Assembly (NCBI GenBank): GCA_002899765.1
Contig: PPDH01000033.1
Coordinates: forward strand, 1-32,284
DNA from: Sulfurimonas sp.
GTDB lineage: Bacteria; Campylobacterota; Campylobacteria; Campylobacterales; Sulfurimonadaceae
DNA length: 32,284 nt
Direction of reading: 5' to 3'
Each line of letters begins with the position of its first letter. Position 1 is the stretch's first letter. A model generated the notes under the pieces. It ran no database searches, was not told the origin of the DNA, and saw only the letters and a list, made by a program, of their open reading frames with translations. The position numbers and the translations under genes are program-made. Positions 1,179 through 8,007 of this stretch are shown here, piece by piece.

Positions 1179-1574
1179 TTACAATATCTGCAGTGTTATT
1201 TCACTTGCCTTTACAACCCATCTAAACTCATCGCCTATTTTGCATTTTAGTCCATGAAGTGCGCCTTTGGTGATGAGCGCGTTGATGTCATATCCTAAAA
1301 AATCAAGTGTAATATTTGCAAGAAGTTTTCCATTTTCTATGTGGGTGATTTTTGAGATAAATGAATTTCTCTCACTCACAATAGAGTCCGTAGTTGCAAG
1401 AGTAACCTCTGTCTCTTTAAATATAAGATGTACATCCATCCCGACTTCCAGCCGATTTTCATCCCCGTTTTCAAGCAGCATAGAGTTTAAAAGCTGCCCC
1501 TTGACATCCATAAAAACAAGCATCAAGCTATCACTTTGTTTGATGGAGACAATATTTCCCTTTAAGATATTCAT
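1179..1574 (-). CDS. Stand-alone TOBE (Mop-like) molybdate/tungstate-binding protein
   Basis: 131 residues made of two consecutive TOBE/Mop-like units: residues 1-65 (begins MNILKGNIVSIKQSDS) and 66-131 (begins VSERNSFISKITHIENGK), each with the K-G-x-I/V beta-strand opening usual for this fold. Such di-Mop proteins bind molybdate or tungstate oxyanions in the cytoplasm and are thought to store or hand over the metal. Its ATG overlaps the TGA of the modD gene (ATGA at 1571-1574), so the two are translationally coupled, and it is the last gene of the mod operon. It has no DNA-binding domain, so it is not a second ModE. A molbindin-like role is inferred from fold and context. Confidence 0.75.
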   Translation of the reverse strand: MNILKGNIVSIKQSDSLMLVFMDVKGQLLNSMLLENGDENRLEVGMDVHLIFKETEVTLATTDSIVSERNSFISKITHIENGKLLANITLDFLGYDINALITKGALHGLKCKIGDEFRWVVKASEITLQIL

Positions 1575-2404
1575 CTGTCGGCTCCTTTGAGTGCAGCACG
1601 CATCTGCACTTTTATATCAAGCGGTTTTGCATGGTAGGGTGAGGATGTAACTATGAGATCAACTCCTGTTTTTGCAAACTCTGAAATATTTTTAACATTT
1701 ATGCCGCCTGTTGCAGAGACGGTAATATTTTTAAACTCTTTTTTAAGAGCAACACACTCTTTAAGCATCTCAAAATCCATCTTTTCGCACTGTAGTATAT
1801 CCGCACCCAAAGAGGCAAAATAACGGGCATCTTCAAGGTTTTTTACCTCTACTGTTATTTTTTTTTCTATAAACTTTTTCTTGATAGTCTTAAAGCTTCT
1901 CTCTAGTTCTTGCTTGTCGCTAAGAAATGCCAAATGTTGCTCAAAGATTAAAATCGAATCATAGAGTCCAAGCCGATGAGGTGTCCCGCCTCCATCCATG
2001 ACCGCTTTTAACATGAGCTCTTTTGAACCAGTGAAATTTTTTCTTGTTGTAGTTATGGCAATGTCTGGATTGATGGCTTTTGCAAGTTGGAGCATTTTGT
2101 CTGTATAGGTAGCGATACCGCTCATATACTCAAAGATATTTTGAGATATTTTCCAAGCATGATGAAGCGATTTTGCATTTCCGCTACACTCCAAAATAGC
2201 CTCATCTTTAGCTACCGTATCGCCGTTTTTTTTCAAAAATCTATATTTTAAGCTACACTTTTTTACAATCTTTTGTACTTCATCACAGCCACTGAGAATT
2301 ATCTCACTCTTTGGAGCAAAACTCATAAAACCCTCTTTGCCACCGATTTCTAATCCAGAAGTTGTCAAGTCAAAATAGCCGCCGTCTTCAAATAATAAAT
2401 CCAT
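1571..2404 (-). CDS. modD: ModD-type quinolinate phosphoribosyltransferase-like protein
   Basis: 277 residues with the nicotinate-nucleotide pyrophosphorylase (NadC) fold signature: an N-terminal half-barrel followed by TTTRKNFTGSKELMLKAV (about residues 119-136), AVMDGGGTPHRLGLYDSILI, and a C-terminal barrel with LGADILQCEKM and SATGGINVKNI. NadC makes nicotinate mononucleotide from quinolinate and PRPP, but genes of this subgroup embedded in molybdate operons are called ModD and their substrate is unsettled. Here it lies 14 bases after modC and overlaps the TOBE gene, which supports the ModD assignment rather than NAD synthesis. No nadA or nadB neighbour is present. Confidence 0.8.
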   Translation of the reverse strand: MDLLFEDGGYFDLTTSGLEIGGKEGFMSFAPKSEIILSGCDEVQKIVKKCSLKYRFLKKNGDTVAKDEAILECSGNAKSLHHAWKISQNIFEYMSGIATYTDKMLQLAKAINPDIAITTTRKNFTGSKELMLKAVMDGGGTPHRLGLYDSILIFEQHLAFLSDKQELERSFKTIKKKFIEKKITVEVKNLEDARYFASLGADILQCEKMDFEMLKECVALKKEFKNITVSATGGINVKNISEFAKTGVDLIVTSSPYHAKPLDIKVQMRAALKGADR

Positions 2405-2418
2405 TTTTATACCTTTGT

Positions 2419-3291
2419 CTAAATCTTTGTCAAAATCGGGTTAAATGCTTTGCTTGAGAGCAGTATCTTATCGCCGATATTTAGATTTTGTATGTCTCGC
2501 TTTACGGCGGTCACTTTGACTATCTCATTGTGTGCTAGAACTTCTACAACATATAAAATATCGCTTTTTTTGATGCTTAGAACCTCTCCCACTATTTTAA
2601 ATTTACCGCTTAGATTTTGATTTGCAAAGACTTCGCTTGGAGTTCCTTCATCTGTAATATTTCCTAAAGCTATTTTAAATACGCGGTTACAGAGACGAAA
2701 AACTTCGCTTATATCATGACTAACCAAAATAGAGGTGATGTCAAACTTTTTGTGAATCACATGTAGTTCGTCTTGAAGTTTGAGTCTCATAGCACTGTCT
2801 AACGCCGAGAGCGGTTCGTCAAGCAGAAGCATTTTTGGGTTTGTCATAAGTGTCCTAGCAACCGCAACCCGCTGTTTTTGTCCGCCGCTTAGGTGTTCGG
2901 GTTTCATAGATGAGAGGTTTTCTATCTCCATCATCTGTAAAATCTCATCTACTTTTTTGCTCTTTTTTGTATCACTTAGAGCAAACTCAAGATTTTGTCT
3001 AACCGTCATATTAGGAAATAGCGCATAGTCTTGAAATACAAAGCCCACGTTTCTTTTTTGCGGCGGGAGATTTATTTTTTTGGAGCTGTCAAACCAGACT
3101 ACATCGTCGACGATTATCGTTCCGCTTTGAGGCATCTCAAGCCCCGCAATGATTCTTAAAAGCGTAGTTTTTCCGCTTCCGCTTTTTCCAAAGAGAGTCA
3201 AAAAATCGCCGCTCTTTATCTCTTTGTCAACTCTTAAATCTATCGTTCCGTCTGCCGTATTCAAGGGTTTTGTTATGTTTATGCGTATCAT
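2419..3291 (-). CDS. modC: Molybdate ABC transporter ATP-binding protein
   Basis: 290-residue ATPase that powers molybdate or tungstate import. Visible motifs are Walker A GKSGSGKTT (residues 35-43), Q-loop FQDYALFP (86-93), ABC signature LSGGQKQR (134-141), Walker B MLLLDEP (154-160) and the switch histidine in LVSHD. Residues from about 230 to 290 form a single TOBE unit (GEVLSIKKSDILYVVEVLA). It is shorter than the ~350-residue enterobacterial ModC, which has a longer C-terminal regulatory region; the separate TOBE protein downstream may compensate (inference). Its ATG overlaps the modB TGA as ATGA (3288-3291), the usual permease-ATPase coupling. Confidence 0.93.
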   Translation of the reverse strand: MIRINITKPLNTADGTIDLRVDKEIKSGDFLTLFGKSGSGKTTLLRIIAGLEMPQSGTIIVDDVVWFDSSKKINLPPQKRNVGFVFQDYALFPNMTVRQNLEFALSDTKKSKKVDEILQMMEIENLSSMKPEHLSGGQKQRVAVARTLMTNPKMLLLDEPLSALDSAMRLKLQDELHVIHKKFDITSILVSHDISEVFRLCNRVFKIALGNITDEGTPSEVFANQNLSGKFKIVGEVLSIKKSDILYVVEVLAHNEIVKVTAVKRDIQNLNIGDKILLSSKAFNPILTKI

Positions 3292-3968
3292 CTAAATTCA
3301 CTTTTTATCATAGATTTATTGATAGCATAGACAAAGAGTAAAATAACAAAAGAGATAATAAAGAGCGTCAATGCGTATTGATTTGCAAGTCCGTAGTTAA
3401 GCGCTTCGACTTCGTCATATATGGCGATACTCGCTACTTTTGTCTCTCCTGCTATATTTCCGCCTATCATCAAAACAACTCCAAACTCCCCCACTGTGTG
3501 CGCAAAAGTGATAACCGCACCAGTCAGAAGTGATGTTTTGATATTTGGTAAAAGTACAAACCAAAGAGTTTGAAATTTGCTTTTTCCTAAGATATACGAA
3601 GCCTCTTGAAGTGACTTACTCAAAGCACTAAATCCGCTTTGAATAGGATGCACCATAAAAGGCAAACTAAAAATAATAGACGCCACAATAAGCCCCTCAA
3701 AGCTAAATACAAGTCTCAGACCAAAACTCTCATCCAGCCAAGCGCCAAAAGAGTTTTTTGGACTAAATGCCAAAAGCAGATAAAATCCAAGCACGGAGGG
3801 AGGCAGTACCAATGGCATAGATACTATCGCTTCAAGTGCTGGTTTGAATTTTGACTTTGTTTGAGAGAGGTAATATCCTAATGGAATACTGATACATAAA
3901 AGTATTAGTGTAGTAATTGCCGCAAGCTCAAAAGTCAGCTTCATTGTTTGGAAAAATGATTCATCCAT
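3288..3968 (-). CDS. modB: Molybdate ABC transporter permease
   Basis: 226-residue inner-membrane permease with about five or six hydrophobic spans (for example ELAAITTLILLCISIPLGYY near the N-terminus and YALTLFIISFVILLFVYAI near the C-terminus). The cytoplasmic coupling loop EASYILGKSKFQTLWFVLLP matches the EAA motif that contacts the ATPase. It carries the family signature SMPLVLPPSVLGFYLL. It forms the membrane channel for molybdate or tungstate delivered by ModA. The gene is 37 bases downstream of modA and overlaps modC by four bases. Length is normal for ModB. Confidence 0.93.
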   Translation of the reverse strand: MDESFFQTMKLTFELAAITTLILLCISIPLGYYLSQTKSKFKPALEAIVSMPLVLPPSVLGFYLLLAFSPKNSFGAWLDESFGLRLVFSFEGLIVASIIFSLPFMVHPIQSGFSALSKSLQEASYILGKSKFQTLWFVLLPNIKTSLLTGAVITFAHTVGEFGVVLMIGGNIAGETKVASIAIYDEVEALNYGLANQYALTLFIISFVILLFVYAINKSMIKSEFR

Positions 3969-4005: not shown

Positions 4006-4743
4006 TCATTTTACTTTTGTAAACCCATACTTCTCAAAACTGTTTTGCGCGGTCTCTGATAGCAGAAAGTCACCGAACTTTTGAGCCAAAGGCTTCTTTT
4101 TTGCATGTTTTGTCAAAACAAATGCTTGTCTCATGGGGGAGTATTTACTTTGGTCTATGAGTTGATATTCACTCTCTTTTTTTGTTGTTTTGATAAGGGA
4201 AAATGCTACAAGACCGATGTCTGCGGCTCCGCTGTCTACAAACTGAACACTTTGGGCGATATTGTCTCCAAGGACAAGTTTCTCTTTTGCCGCATCCTCT
4301 AAAGCGTAGTTTTTAAGGATCTCCATTGCAGCGGCTCCGTAAGGGGCGAGCCTGGGGTTTGCTATAGAGAGATGTTTTACTTTTTTATCTTTTATAGCTT
4401 CAAGTCCTTTTTTTACTATCTCTTCATCATGACTAAAGAGTGCGACCGCTCCCATCGCATAGACTAACGGCTCTGTTATCGCATTGCCGTCGCTGGCTAT
4501 TTTTTGAGGATATTTGCTATCGGCAGCTATAAAAACATCATACTCAAACCCGTTTGTAAACTGTGCATAGGCTTTTCCAGTAGCAGAATAAATCACGACA
4601 ATCTCATCTTTTGGGTTGTGCTTTTTAAACTCCTCGGTTATCTCTTGCATAGCGAGTTTTGTACTGCTTGCCGCAAAAACTTTGATAGTGTCGGCAGACA
4701 AACTCATACTTAAAATCATTAAACCTAAGATTATTTTTTTCAT
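4006..4743 (-). CDS. modA: Molybdate/tungstate periplasmic binding protein
   Basis: 245 residues starting with a signal peptide (MKKIILGLMILSMSLSADT; cleavage likely after the Ala near residue 17). The mature part shows ModA hallmarks: FAASSTKLAMQEI with the Ser pair that binds the oxyanion, YSATGKAYAQ, FDVFIAADSKYPQK, and SGAADIGLVAFSL. It captures molybdate or tungstate in the periplasm and passes it to ModB. The start follows the porin gene by 9 bases, so the two are almost certainly on one transcript. Selectivity between molybdate and tungstate cannot be read from these motifs. Confidence 0.93.
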   Translation of the reverse strand: MKKIILGLMILSMSLSADTIKVFAASSTKLAMQEITEEFKKHNPKDEIVVIYSATGKAYAQFTNGFEYDVFIAADSKYPQKIASDGNAITEPLVYAMGAVALFSHDEEIVKKGLEAIKDKKVKHLSIANPRLAPYGAAAMEILKNYALEDAAKEKLVLGDNIAQSVQFVDSGAADIGLVAFSLIKTTKKESEYQLIDQSKYSPMRQAFVLTKHAKKKPLAQKFGDFLLSETAQNSFEKYGFTKVK

Positions 4744-4752
4744 CTTTAATCC

Positions 4753-6204
4753 TTAAAATAGATAGTTCAACTCAAAACGAGCATCCAACGAATCCGTATC
4801 AATCTTTTTGGTATCTGCATATCCTAGTCTTAAACGCCATTGCAGGTCAATAAAAGAGGGTATGTTTTGAATAAATCCCACGTAATAGAAGTTTTCATCA
4901 AATTGTCCTTTTGATTCATCGGCATCCGTATGAAGTATGGAAAGCTGAGTAACTATATCTTTATACGCTCCCGCTTGATTGGAGTTAATCATAAGCTCTG
5001 CGCGGTAACTTTTGGTGTTTGCTATCCAGTTGTATCTTGCCATAGAACGCGTATAGCCTGCGGTAGGAAATCCTCTCCATGGAGTTACTAAATCAGCTTC
5101 ATCAAGTACTTGTGAATAGCCCAAATTTAATTTTAAATTTTTATAAACTCCTACCAAACGAGCCGCTATCATCTGAGAATCAAGTGAAGCAGGGTCTTTA
5201 TATCCAGTAGTAGTACCGTCGTAAGCTGCTCCGCCGACGCTTCCTGCTCCGTTATCAAACTGTTTTATGTATCTGACTCCGGGAGAGAGCATAAAGCCGT
5301 CAAATTTCATTTTGTAATTAAGCTCTCCCATTGCTTGGCTTAAAAGTTCCGGCACATTATAAAAAGAGGCATTTATAGTGAGGTTTTCTACGGATTTGTT
5401 TTGAATATCTCCTGTTATTAGAGGTGCATCGGTATCTTTACCTGCAGCCTTTAGAGCCGTATATGACAAGCCTTTGTGCATAGCCGAATCATCGTTAGCG
5501 TTCCATGTAGATTTGTTAGCCGTATCTGAGTTGTCATACATCAAAACGGAGTGTGAAGAGGTATGGTCTCTTAGCTTCTGTTTTGTCAAGTACGCGATTT
5601 TTACGCTTGTTTGAGGAAGAGATTTATTCTCAATTAAAGCGCCGTCAAAAGTGTTGGGAATCATCTTAGTATCGTTTGACTTTGTATAAAAAGTCTCTAC
5701 AAGCTGACGACCTAAGCGAATTTCTGTTTTTGGCAGACCTTTATAACTGATATAAGCCTGACCTAAGACCGCCATGGATTTATCGCCGCCCGTCGCAAAA
5801 TCGTAGCGGCTTAGCACGTCTTTACCTGATTTTAAACTAGTTACAGGATCATCATCCTCATCAAAAAAGGCTTTTGAGTAGTAAAGACCTGCAGTAAAAT
5901 CCACATCGCCCAGAGTCGCTGTTTTGTAGACAAGAGAGCCGCCTATAGCGGTTATAATATTAGAATTTTGAGAAGCTGTCTCTTTTTCCCAGTCGTAAAG
6001 AAAAGTGTTTGAGCGGAGTCTGCCGTAAAATATCCCTTCTTGAAACATGTCCGCTAAATTATCTACGGATTTTGGTTTTGTATTGTAACTCTCTTGATAG
6101 TTAGCTTTGAGAGTATGCTTTGAGAGACTCTCGTCTGCGTTTAATGCACATGCAGCGAGCAATACAACAACTGCAGCAGTGCTAAGTTTTGTGTTAATTT
6201 TCAT
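4753..6204 (-). CDS. Campylobacterota-type outer-membrane porin located in the mod operon
   Basis: 483 residues with an N-terminal signal peptide (MKINTKLSTAAVVVLLAACALNADE), a conserved-looking segment LADMFQEGIFYGRLRSNTFLYDW near residues 50-70, alternating beta-strand character throughout, and a C-terminal strand ending in FELNYLF, whose terminal Phe is the usual outer-membrane insertion signal. This matches the OprD-like porin family common in Sulfurimonas and relatives. It sits between modE and modA on the same strand, 9 bases from modA, which suggests a channel for molybdate or tungstate across the outer membrane; that substrate is inferred from context only. The Cys in ACALN resembles a weak lipobox, but the beta-barrel features favour a soluble-type signal peptide. 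Confidence 0.82.
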   Translation of the reverse strand: MKINTKLSTAAVVVLLAACALNADESLSKHTLKANYQESYNTKPKSVDNLADMFQEGIFYGRLRSNTFLYDWEKETASQNSNIITAIGGSLVYKTATLGDVDFTAGLYYSKAFFDEDDDPVTSLKSGKDVLSRYDFATGGDKSMAVLGQAYISYKGLPKTEIRLGRQLVETFYTKSNDTKMIPNTFDGALIENKSLPQTSVKIAYLTKQKLRDHTSSHSVLMYDNSDTANKSTWNANDDSAMHKGLSYTALKAAGKDTDAPLITGDIQNKSVENLTINASFYNVPELLSQAMGELNYKMKFDGFMLSPGVRYIKQFDNGAGSVGGAAYDGTTTGYKDPASLDSQMIAARLVGVYKNLKLNLGYSQVLDEADLVTPWRGFPTAGYTRSMARYNWIANTKSYRAELMINSNQAGAYKDIVTQLSILHTDADESKGQFDENFYYVGFIQNIPSFIDLQWRLRLGYADTKKIDTDSLDARFELNYLF

Positions 6205-6290
6205 AAATTTTCCTTTAATGTAATTTTAATTTGTTATACTTTTATCGCTTCTTCCAAAGCACTTGTCTTGCAGTTACCGCTGCAAGGCTT

Positions 6291-6329: not shown

Positions 6330-6352
6330 TCGTAATAAAAAATTCATAACGA
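6330..6352. promoter_or_regulatory. Candidate ModE operator upstream of porin-modABCD
   Basis: Imperfect inverted repeat: on the minus strand TCGTTAT, nine bases, ATTACGA, with one mismatch in seven base pairs. It resembles the CGTTAT/ATAACG half-sites of enterobacterial ModE operators as I remember them, although the spacing here is shorter. It begins just past the modE stop codon and about 130 bases before the porin start, a reasonable place for molybdate-dependent control of the transport genes. Confidence 0.35.
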
Positions 6353-6359
6353 TAATTTT

Positions 6360-7151
6360 TTACCATCTGCCTAAGATAATGCTTTTTGGTTTACAAAAAG
6401 CGCTCACCTGCATCCCGCTTTTTAGATTTAATCTCTTAAGCATCTCTATAGGCAGAGTCGAACATACCGTGTTACCGCCTTTTAGCTCAATGATAACCTC
6501 TGCATTTAAACTATCTTGTTCTATTCGGATAATTTTCCCTATGAAACGGTTCATATCGTTTTTATCAGGTGAAAATTCATCATTTAAAAGCAGAGCATTT
6601 GCTTTAAAGAGTGCATACAGCTCCATGCCTACATCAACTTCAAGAGTAGTTAACGAATCGTTTGTGATTACGGCTGTTATACTCTCTTTGTTGCCCAGTT
6701 CAAGGAAGACTCTGCTCTCAACAACGCCTCTTTGAATACTTAAAACTTTTGTCTTTAGCTGATTTCTTGCACTTATACGAATATCCATACTCTTTAAAAG
6801 ATGGATATGCCCGTTTTTTTCACTTATGCGTTTTGATAGGTTGTCTAAAAATTGTTGATGCTCTTCTTGAAGGATTTTGTAGGTGTTTATAAGCTCTTTT
6901 GCGTATTCACTCAGATGTGTTCCGCCGCCGCCTTTGCCGCCTTTAGAACTTGTAACAAGCGGAAACTCTGAGAGGTTGTTCATGGCATCTACGGCATCCC
7001 ATGCAGCTTTGTAGCTCATCTTCATAGATTTTGCCGCTTTTGTTATGGAACCATCTTTTTGGATGTGCATTAAAAGCTCCATTCGGCCTTGTCCAAGGAA
7101 GTTATGCTCTGACTTATTTATCCATAATCGCCCGTTAATACTATTTGTCAT
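6360..7151 (-). CDS. modE: ModE molybdate-responsive transcriptional regulator
   Basis: 263 residues, the usual full length. Residues ~20-110 form a LysR-like winged helix-turn-helix (MELLMHIQKDGSITKAAKSM, MSYKAAWDAVDAMNN, and the glycine-rich wing SSKGGKGGGGTHLSEYAKEL). Residues ~125-263 are two TOBE domains that bind molybdate or tungstate (starting RISARNQLKTKVLSIQRG, and MNRFIGKIIRIEQDSLNAEV). With ligand bound, ModE usually represses transport genes. It is transcribed toward the porin and mod genes. An inverted repeat in its own upstream region (7196-7219) suggests autoregulation. A possible -10, TATTAT, lies at 7185-7190 on this strand. Confidence 0.92.
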   Translation of the reverse strand: MTNSINGRLWINKSEHNFLGQGRMELLMHIQKDGSITKAAKSMKMSYKAAWDAVDAMNNLSEFPLVTSSKGGKGGGGTHLSEYAKELINTYKILQEEHQQFLDNLSKRISEKNGHIHLLKSMDIRISARNQLKTKVLSIQRGVVESRVFLELGNKESITAVITNDSLTTLEVDVGMELYALFKANALLLNDEFSPDKNDMNRFIGKIIRIEQDSLNAEVIIELKGGNTVCSTLPIEMLKRLNLKSGMQVSAFCKPKSIILGRW

Positions 7152-7195
7152 AACAACTCCTAAACTTATGCTTGAAACCGAAGTATAATAAAATA

Positions 7196-7219
7196 TATAA
7201 CGATTGTCAATCGGCTATA
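7196..7219. promoter_or_regulatory. Candidate operator between modE and pyrH
   Basis: Inverted repeat with arms TATAACGATT (7196-7205) and AATCGGCTATA (7209-7219) around GTC; the AATCG/CGATT core pairs perfectly and the outer parts pair with mismatches. It overlaps the expected -35 zone of modE and lies ~45 bases upstream of the pyrH -10. The TATAACG element is ModE-like, so ModE self-control is a reasonable guess. Confidence 0.35.

Positions 7220-7261: not shown

Positions 7262-8007
<746 letters not shown>

Follow-up and report, generated by a model that had tools for sequence, protein, structure and literature searches.

Can an outer-membrane porin be a dedicated part of a molybdate uptake operon? 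The question is raised by a porin gene in a stretch of DNA from Sulfurimonas sp. (contig PPDH01000033.1, assembly GCA_002899765.1), analysed here at its full length of 32,284 nucleotides and referred to as the window. Molybdate is thought to cross the outer membrane by diffusion through porins, as described in a passage of one review (PMC8264917). Analysis of the window and of related genomes suggests that its porin is probably an outer-membrane channel that ModE represses, one dedicated to the surrounding molybdate/tungstate operon and belonging to an oxyanion-porin family of the Campylobacterota. The genes form one array on the minus strand, in the order modE–porin–modA–modB–modC–modD–mop:

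6360–7151, minus strand: modE, molybdate-responsive repressor with a helix-turn-helix and two TOBE stretches (TIGR00637, 100.9 bits, cut-off 98.5; TIGR00638; Pfam TOBE)
4753–6204, minus strand: porin gene, 483 amino acids, Occ/OprD fold, C-terminal phenylalanine (open reading frame; Pfam OprD; AlphaFold2 model; structural matches)
4006–4743, minus strand: modA, molybdate-binding periplasmic protein (TIGR01256, 172.5 bits, cut-off 62.5)
3288–3968, minus strand: modB, permease (TIGR02141, 230.8 bits, cut-off 182.6)
2419–3291, minus strand: modC, ATPase, assigned by position (best NCBIfam match TIGR02142, 235.1 bits, below the cut-off of 285.05)
1571–2404, minus strand: modD, quinolinate-phosphoribosyltransferase-like (TIGR01334, 236.7 bits, cut-off 178.85)
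1179–1574, minus strand: mop, Mop/TOBE molybdate-binding protein (TIGR00638, 55.6 bits, cut-off 55)

A preliminary description of the window had placed the porin between modE and modA, 9 bases from the latter, and the open reading frame coordinates agree: the gap from the porin stop to the modA start is 9 bp. The genes further downstream are separated by gaps of 37 or 14 bp, or overlap by 4 bp. modA, modB and modC are contiguous, the first two scoring above their family cut-offs and the modC-like gene below its own. The porin itself matched Pfam OprD (PF03573) with 35.0 bits against a gathering cut-off of 25, a partial model match covering residues 159–249, and gave no NCBIfam match at E ≤ 0.001.

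Genome contigs were scanned with the window porin, and the best 80 of 237 related stretches were kept. Neighbours of these 80 loci were assigned by BLAST against window and reference proteins, giving 35 mod, 6 wtp, 1 cys, 21 sox (plus 1 probable), 4 moeA and 12 other loci. The gene following the porin was modA in 32 of the 35 mod loci, at a spacing of 3–14 bp in 30 of the 32; one short gene intervened in the other three. In Sulfurimonas indica NW8N (L092), for example, the order reads porin-modA-ORF-modB-modC. modE immediately preceded the porin in 10 of the 35, and the modE and porin reading frames overlapped by 4 bp in four of these ten (L098, L099, L100 and L105). Gene orders and spacings in the mod loci were counted by eye, with reading frame starts set mechanically.

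Some match to the porin was present in 133 of 151 Sulfurimonadaceae genomes. Among the matches listed, 54 porins in 51 of the 151 genomes were at least 51% identical to it, a count that may miss short fragments at or above this identity. A ModB-family permease gene lay 0.4–2.9 kb downstream on the same strand for 40 of the 54 (39 ModB, 1 CysT-like). Seven of the remaining 14 were near modE/modA or wtp genes, some of them at contig ends (G020, G025, G043, G073, G099, G121 and G129). This pairing used ModB matches from 108 of 140 genomes; two porin matches of G014 were added, and the second pieces of split porin genes in G129 and G026 were excluded. The 80-locus and 151-genome sets consist partly of the same contigs, and G020 and G133 were classed through their twin loci L075 and L080, recognised by contigs of equal length.

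As a control, the same comparison was made for another OprD-like porin of the window's genome (L003, 26% identical), which had 110 matches in 100 of the same genomes. None of the 110 lay within 6 kb of any of 150 ModB-family matches; 33 shared a contig with one, the nearest at 27 kb. All 150 ModB matches were used here, and the second pieces of split genes in G114 and G124 were excluded. With an arrangement conserved in relatives, set against a control porin that shows no proximity to ModB, the gene order cannot be put down to chance.

Sampling was extended beyond the family. In an order-level sample, 94 of 298 genomes had a porin match, and the four genomes outside the family whose porin reached 57% identity or more (G234, G290, G325 and G347) all carried it in a mod or wtp operon. 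No spread beyond the order was seen: 46 of 298 genomes drawn from the phylum gave a match, all within the same order, the out-of-order share of the 298 not being established. Conservation of the order modE–porin–modA had been proposed as a check on the preliminary description, which lack of conservation would have refuted. That refutation did not occur: the order porin–modA recurs across the Sulfurimonadaceae, and the porins of the four genomes outside the family keep the mod or wtp linkage.

Phylogenetic analysis of 83 porins by maximum likelihood resolved a clade of 48 (36 mod, 5 wtp, 1 cys, 6 other; support 97/99) and a second clade of 33 (21 sox, 1 probable sox, 4 moeA, 1 wtp, 6 other), with weaker support of 90/70. 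Porins of the mod clade were paired with two divergent ModB types, 85–100% and 53–61% identical to that of the window; examples are G042 (porin 60%, ModB 85%) and G083 (porin 67%, ModB 54%). Two wtp orders were found, moeA-porin-wtpA-ATPase-wtpB and moeA-wtpA-ATPase-porin-wtpB. More distant porins, 32–40% identical by BLAST, again occurred in mod (L175, L176, L182) and cys (L177) operons. Given this re-pairing with several operon types, common descent of one fixed operon is insufficient as an explanation, and a function shared with the molybdate, tungstate, sulfate and sulfur-oxidation systems fits. As branches of the family sit in wtp, cys and sox operons, the porin is probably selective for small tetrahedral divalent oxyanions and tuned to its operon mainly by co-expression.

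Whether ModE could control the porin was addressed from the operator sequences. The E. coli ModE consensus, as it appears in the text of PMC545781, is ATCGNTATATA-N6-TATATANCGAT, corresponding to CGTTATAT-like half-sites with a spacing of 8 bp. Operators were tested as CGNTATATA-N6-TATATANCG and scored out of 16 half-site bases. The elements found in the window were:

7182–7210, minus strand: sigma-70-type promoter upstream of modE, TTGACA-17-TATACT, 11/12 (motif match)
7179–7202, minus strand: ModE box upstream of modE, CGTTATATATTTTATTATACTTCG, 13/16, consensus spacing (consensus comparison and pattern scan)
6331–6351, minus strand: degenerate ModE-like box ahead of the porin, CGTTATGAATTTTTTATTACG, half-sites 5 bp apart rather than 8 (comparison with L072 and L073)

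The box at 7202–7179 covers the spacer and −10 element of the modE promoter, and modE lies between this box and the porin. A pattern shaped after this very site, scanned over both strands of the window with up to 3 mismatches, gave 8 matches against 2.45 expected; none of 100 shuffles reached 8. At the place equivalent to the porin-side box, L072 and L073 have the 24-mer CGCTATGGATTTTTTAATATTACG, scoring 12/16. As these relatives keep the 24-bp form, the window's porin-side box looks like a weakened version from which 3 bp were deleted. The ModE-like box that had been described ahead of the porin is therefore present, at 6351–6331, but its spacing is degenerate and the better box lies upstream of modE.

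In the relatives, a box scoring at least 13/16 stood immediately upstream of the porin in 10 of 44 mod-clade loci, against 0.23% of shuffles, and 8 of the 44 had one scoring 15–16/16, against none of 4,400 shuffles. No box of at least 13/16 was found ahead of the porin in 31 sox-clade loci. The scan covered the loci with 300 bases upstream (44 of 47 mod-clade and 31 of 33 sox-clade), and its half-site was fixed after inspection of the sites in the window and relatives, but is identical to the E. coli consensus in the literature. Boxes of 13–15/16 precede modE in several relatives; in L076 and L107, perfect boxes (16/16) lie in the modE–porin gap. Because boxes precede modE or the porin in the window and its relatives, the array is read as a ModE-autoregulated operon that would include the porin; spacing and shared strand point to co-transcription.

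The structure of the porin was predicted with AlphaFold2 from an alignment of 69 sequences. The model had a predicted local distance difference test score (pLDDT) of 90.1, and 18 barrel strands were counted. Using VIA-align, the best match was OpdK (2y2x; Z 34.6, root-mean-square deviation 2.6 over 359 residues, 14% identity), followed by other Occ channels, and Occ channels were also the top structural matches in Foldseek (E 2e-21). A model of a sox-clade porin (pLDDT 86.2) gave the same structure group in Foldseek. At E ≤ 0.01, Pfam OprD matched 68 of the 69 aligned porins, OprB matched 3 members, one stray family appeared, and the MOMP family matched none; the crystal structure of Campylobacter MOMP was a distant structural match (Z 26.5). 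The C-terminal phenylalanine is invariant in relatives. A lipoprotein signal, suggested by LAAC in the signal peptide, was rejected: most of the relatives whose N-termini were compared have no cysteine at that place, and the terminal phenylalanine does not vary. One relative, L066, has a cysteine in its N-terminal stretch without a lipobox.

Sequence conservation was highest in two loops, 168–184 and 367–397, where the mean frequency of the commonest residue in the mod clade was 0.95 and 0.88, respectively, versus 0.70 in the strands. Such conservation would fit loops that fold into the pore. In both clades, conservation reaches 90% or more at sixteen basic positions, and 9 of the 11 conserved basic residues on predicted strands face the polar side. 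Three of the sixteen, R457, R459 and R476, lie on the last two strands and pair in alignment with arginines of VanP, a porin of solved structure, although the C-terminal stretch by itself scores below significance. In their arrangement these three are similar to the central basic ladder of OccD1, given as R389, R391 and R410 in the text of PMC3260308.

A mechanism can be proposed that would join these elements. When cellular molybdate is low, ModE would dissociate from the operator that covers the modE promoter, allowing the whole modE-porin-modA-modB-modC-modD-mop array to be transcribed. The porin would then pass MoO4(2-) or WO4(2-) down a putative arginine ladder into the periplasm, where ModA would bind the anion and ModBC would pump it inward.

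Several observations weigh against the porin being a ModE-repressed channel dedicated to this operon. No box of at least 13/16 lies directly ahead of the porin in 34 of the 44 mod-clade loci, and none was found, in the stretch tested, upstream of several porin-linked modE genes (for example L076, L107, L090, L176, L182 and the wtp loci L077 and L087). Seven of the 54 porins are in unrelated surroundings (G009, G013, G046, G064, G085, G101 and G133). The porin adjoins ModB in at least 43 of the 140 genomes that have a ModB match, and several mod operons have a ModB 77–85% identical to that of the window but no listed porin beside them (for example G115, G095, G093 and G017), so the channel is not required. 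In the protein, R166 and K398, conserved basic residues on strands, are on the apolar side, and the mature porin is slightly acidic overall, with 56 aspartate and glutamate against 49 lysine and arginine residues. Finally, the nearest homologue (L109, 86% identical, from Sulfurimonas KA11) is flanked by a sulfate-binding-protein gene on one side and cysT-cysW-cysA on the other, and it is a second porin of that isolate, 63% identical (L073), that lies in its mod operon. Strict specificity for molybdate is unlikely because of this homologue, and was rejected. An oxyanion channel fits better than a molybdate-only channel, since the clade also occurs in wtp and cys operons and its sister clade in sox clusters. 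The dedicated molybdate or tungstate channel of the preliminary description keeps the support of conserved mod/wtp linkage and of the ModE boxes, but its molybdate-only form is disfavoured by the cys and sox contexts.

The same contexts bear on the alternatives. The porin could be a general channel for anions or sulfur compounds (thiosulfate, sulfate, polysulfide), placed in the mod operon for co-induction with molybdenum-dependent respiration and not for molybdate passage. The sister clade in sox clusters (21 of the 80 loci) and the 86% homologue in a sulfate operon agree with this, as do the few fixed differences between the mod and sox clades (V169F, Y173L, S387A and eight more, at the thresholds used). 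On the basis of transcript levels, a role in sulfur uptake has also been proposed for OprD-like porins of Sulfurovum and Sulfurimonas (PMC10045233), which may or may not include the sox clade. However, repeated pairing with ModABC or WtpABC, together with ModE boxes ahead of the porin, ties the mod branch to molybdate status, and the sox branch has no such boxes (0/31). We consider a general channel unlikely, though it is the alternative to be taken most seriously. It is less probable still that the porin carries another anion, probably an organic one, and owes its operon position to a historical accident kept by vertical descent. Its fold is indeed shared with characterised carboxylate channels; vertical descent, however, leaves the two ModB types, the two wtp orders and the pairing with cys and sox unexplained, and no carboxylate gene occurs among the identified neighbours, few loci being annotated beyond the reference genes.

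A channel serving tungstate first and molybdate second, with ModA or WtpA deciding which anion is kept, would account for the six wtp loci that carry the porin; in five, moeA is also part of the array. Two of the binding proteins, those of L083 and L087, score above the TIGR03730 cut-off for WtpA, and BLAST similarity to this pair was the basis for assigning the remaining four. The same sample, however, holds 35 mod loci against these six, one of which (L141) falls outside the mod clade, and immediately upstream of the porin all six wtp loci lack a ModE box (scores 9–11/16). Precedence of tungstate is thus very improbable, and a ModE-repressed oxyanion channel dedicated to the operon remains the reading that we favour.

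The gap between modE and the porin also contains three conserved elements:

6267–6285, minus strand: conserved dyad TTGCAGCGGTAACTGCAAG (pattern matches in 151 genomes)
6260–6247, minus strand: conserved element GCTTTGGnnnAAGC, after the dyad
6242–6233, minus strand: conserved element AAAGTATAAY, after the dyad

The three elements stand at about −79, −56 and −38 from the porin start, respectively, and the dyad core is at −74 to −81 in the related loci listed. All eight exact matches of the dyad pattern in the 151 genomes are upstream of this porin, that of G047 about 330 bp away. The dyad may be an RNA hairpin, a regulator site or a second promoter. A riboswitch ahead of the porin was considered and rejected, no Rfam family reaching its gathering score in the window; the modE–porin gap gave only weak matches, the best with E 0.35, far below the gathering score of the family. 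Comparison of the hairpins in six leaders showed that sequence was kept more than pairing, and for this reason neither an RNA element nor a protein site is favoured.

Further observations were made on relatives of the porin. Members of the sister clade (~45% identity) lie beside soxB in L112–L115, L117, L118, L120, L122, L123, L126–L130, L132, L134, L136, L137, L139, L142 and L144. In many of these clusters a metallo-beta-lactamase-fold protein and a DUF302 protein come next, the families having been checked in L118 only. The sox-linked porins are candidate thiosulfate or sulfur channels, to judge from their neighbours. Other sister-clade porins are downstream of moeA (L125, L133, L135 and L138). 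A gene of 664 amino acids follows the porin in L133 and L138, and that of L133 encodes a methyl-accepting chemotaxis protein with a dCache domain. Within wtp operons, the porin is split in two pieces by a frame break at G129:C1:187864-189344 (L174) and G290:C1:1458867-1460612 (L179). In L141 a porin of 43% identity precedes wtpA, wtpB and ABC-ATPase genes; its contig was assigned to a Desulfococcus bin, which may reflect cross-phylum transfer or mis-binning. The window's genome has further porin relatives at contig ends, G000:C29:131222-131695 (43%, L002) and G000:C6:11-223 (48%, L004), perhaps one split paralogue. Elsewhere in the window, a plus-strand gene at 7294–8007 resembles pyrH (UMP kinase) by eye. 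It has an in-frame TAA at 7657–7659, with the frame open beyond. pyrH is normally essential; the stop may be a sequencing error of the assembly or real.

How does the porin compare with known systems? The array resembles the E. coli-type ModE–ModABC operon in its modE and modABC genes and in the consensus-spaced ModE box over the promoter, and differs in including an outer-membrane channel. In P. aeruginosa, molybdate is reported to have an outer-membrane step of its own (PMC8602904, PMC11734730), which involves ModA secreted by the type VI secretion system and the outer-membrane protein IcmP. That route shares the dedicated step with the window and differs in its means, a secreted ModA and a metalloproteinase as compared with an Occ-fold porin. 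Among the open-licence papers listed, no title or abstract opening describes a porin of this kind, and the library names no molybdate, tungstate, oxyanion, thiosulfate or sulfate porin. The novelty claimed for the porin relative to general-porin passage is consistent with this literature, but it is not the only dedicated outer-membrane route on record.

With the Occ/OprD family (OccK1/OpdK, OccD1/OprD, OccAB) the porin shares a predicted 18-stranded barrel and Pfam OprD, and its R-x-R plus R on the last strands resembles their basic ladder. It differs in its ~14% identity to solved members and its partial Pfam match. A further difference lies in context: porins of the present family are found in operons for molybdate, tungstate, sulfate and sox functions, but the Occ channels characterised so far transport carboxylates and are described, in the text of PMC3260308, as requiring a carboxyl group in small substrates. 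The same text names OprP of P. aeruginosa as a phosphate channel (PMC3260308). OprP is comparable as an outer-membrane channel dedicated to an inorganic oxyanion. It is a 16-stranded trimer of another family than Occ. In Geobacter sulfurreducens, a hypothetical porin with a FUR box next to feoAB was placed by sequence analysis, according to the relevant passage of PMC545781; it is likewise a predicted porin in a metal-uptake cluster or regulon, and differs in belonging to the OprB family, in serving iron and in being a prediction only. A table row of PMC5554334 lists an OprD-family porin mutant of P. stutzeri with strongly reduced fitness under chromate, which is suggestive and is not taken as evidence here.

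A broader reading, which we put forward tentatively but regard as a serious possibility, is that Occ-fold porins of the Campylobacterota evolved from carboxylate channels to channels for tetrahedral oxyanions and were wired to each operon in turn (mod, wtp, cys, sox), the mod branch forming a ModE-controlled third layer of the ModABC system. If oxyanion passage is true, it would add a new substrate class to the Occ fold and a new component to the Mod system, and Occ channels, known as gates for carboxylates and antibiotics, would prove recruitable for inorganic nutrients. The outer-membrane step of molybdate uptake, usually called porin diffusion, becomes testable through a conserved channel of the importer array with repressor boxes. 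For the sulfur oxidisers of this group, the family would also provide a genomic handle on the entry of thiosulfate and sulfate, and an operon-based rule for annotating 'OprD family' genes.
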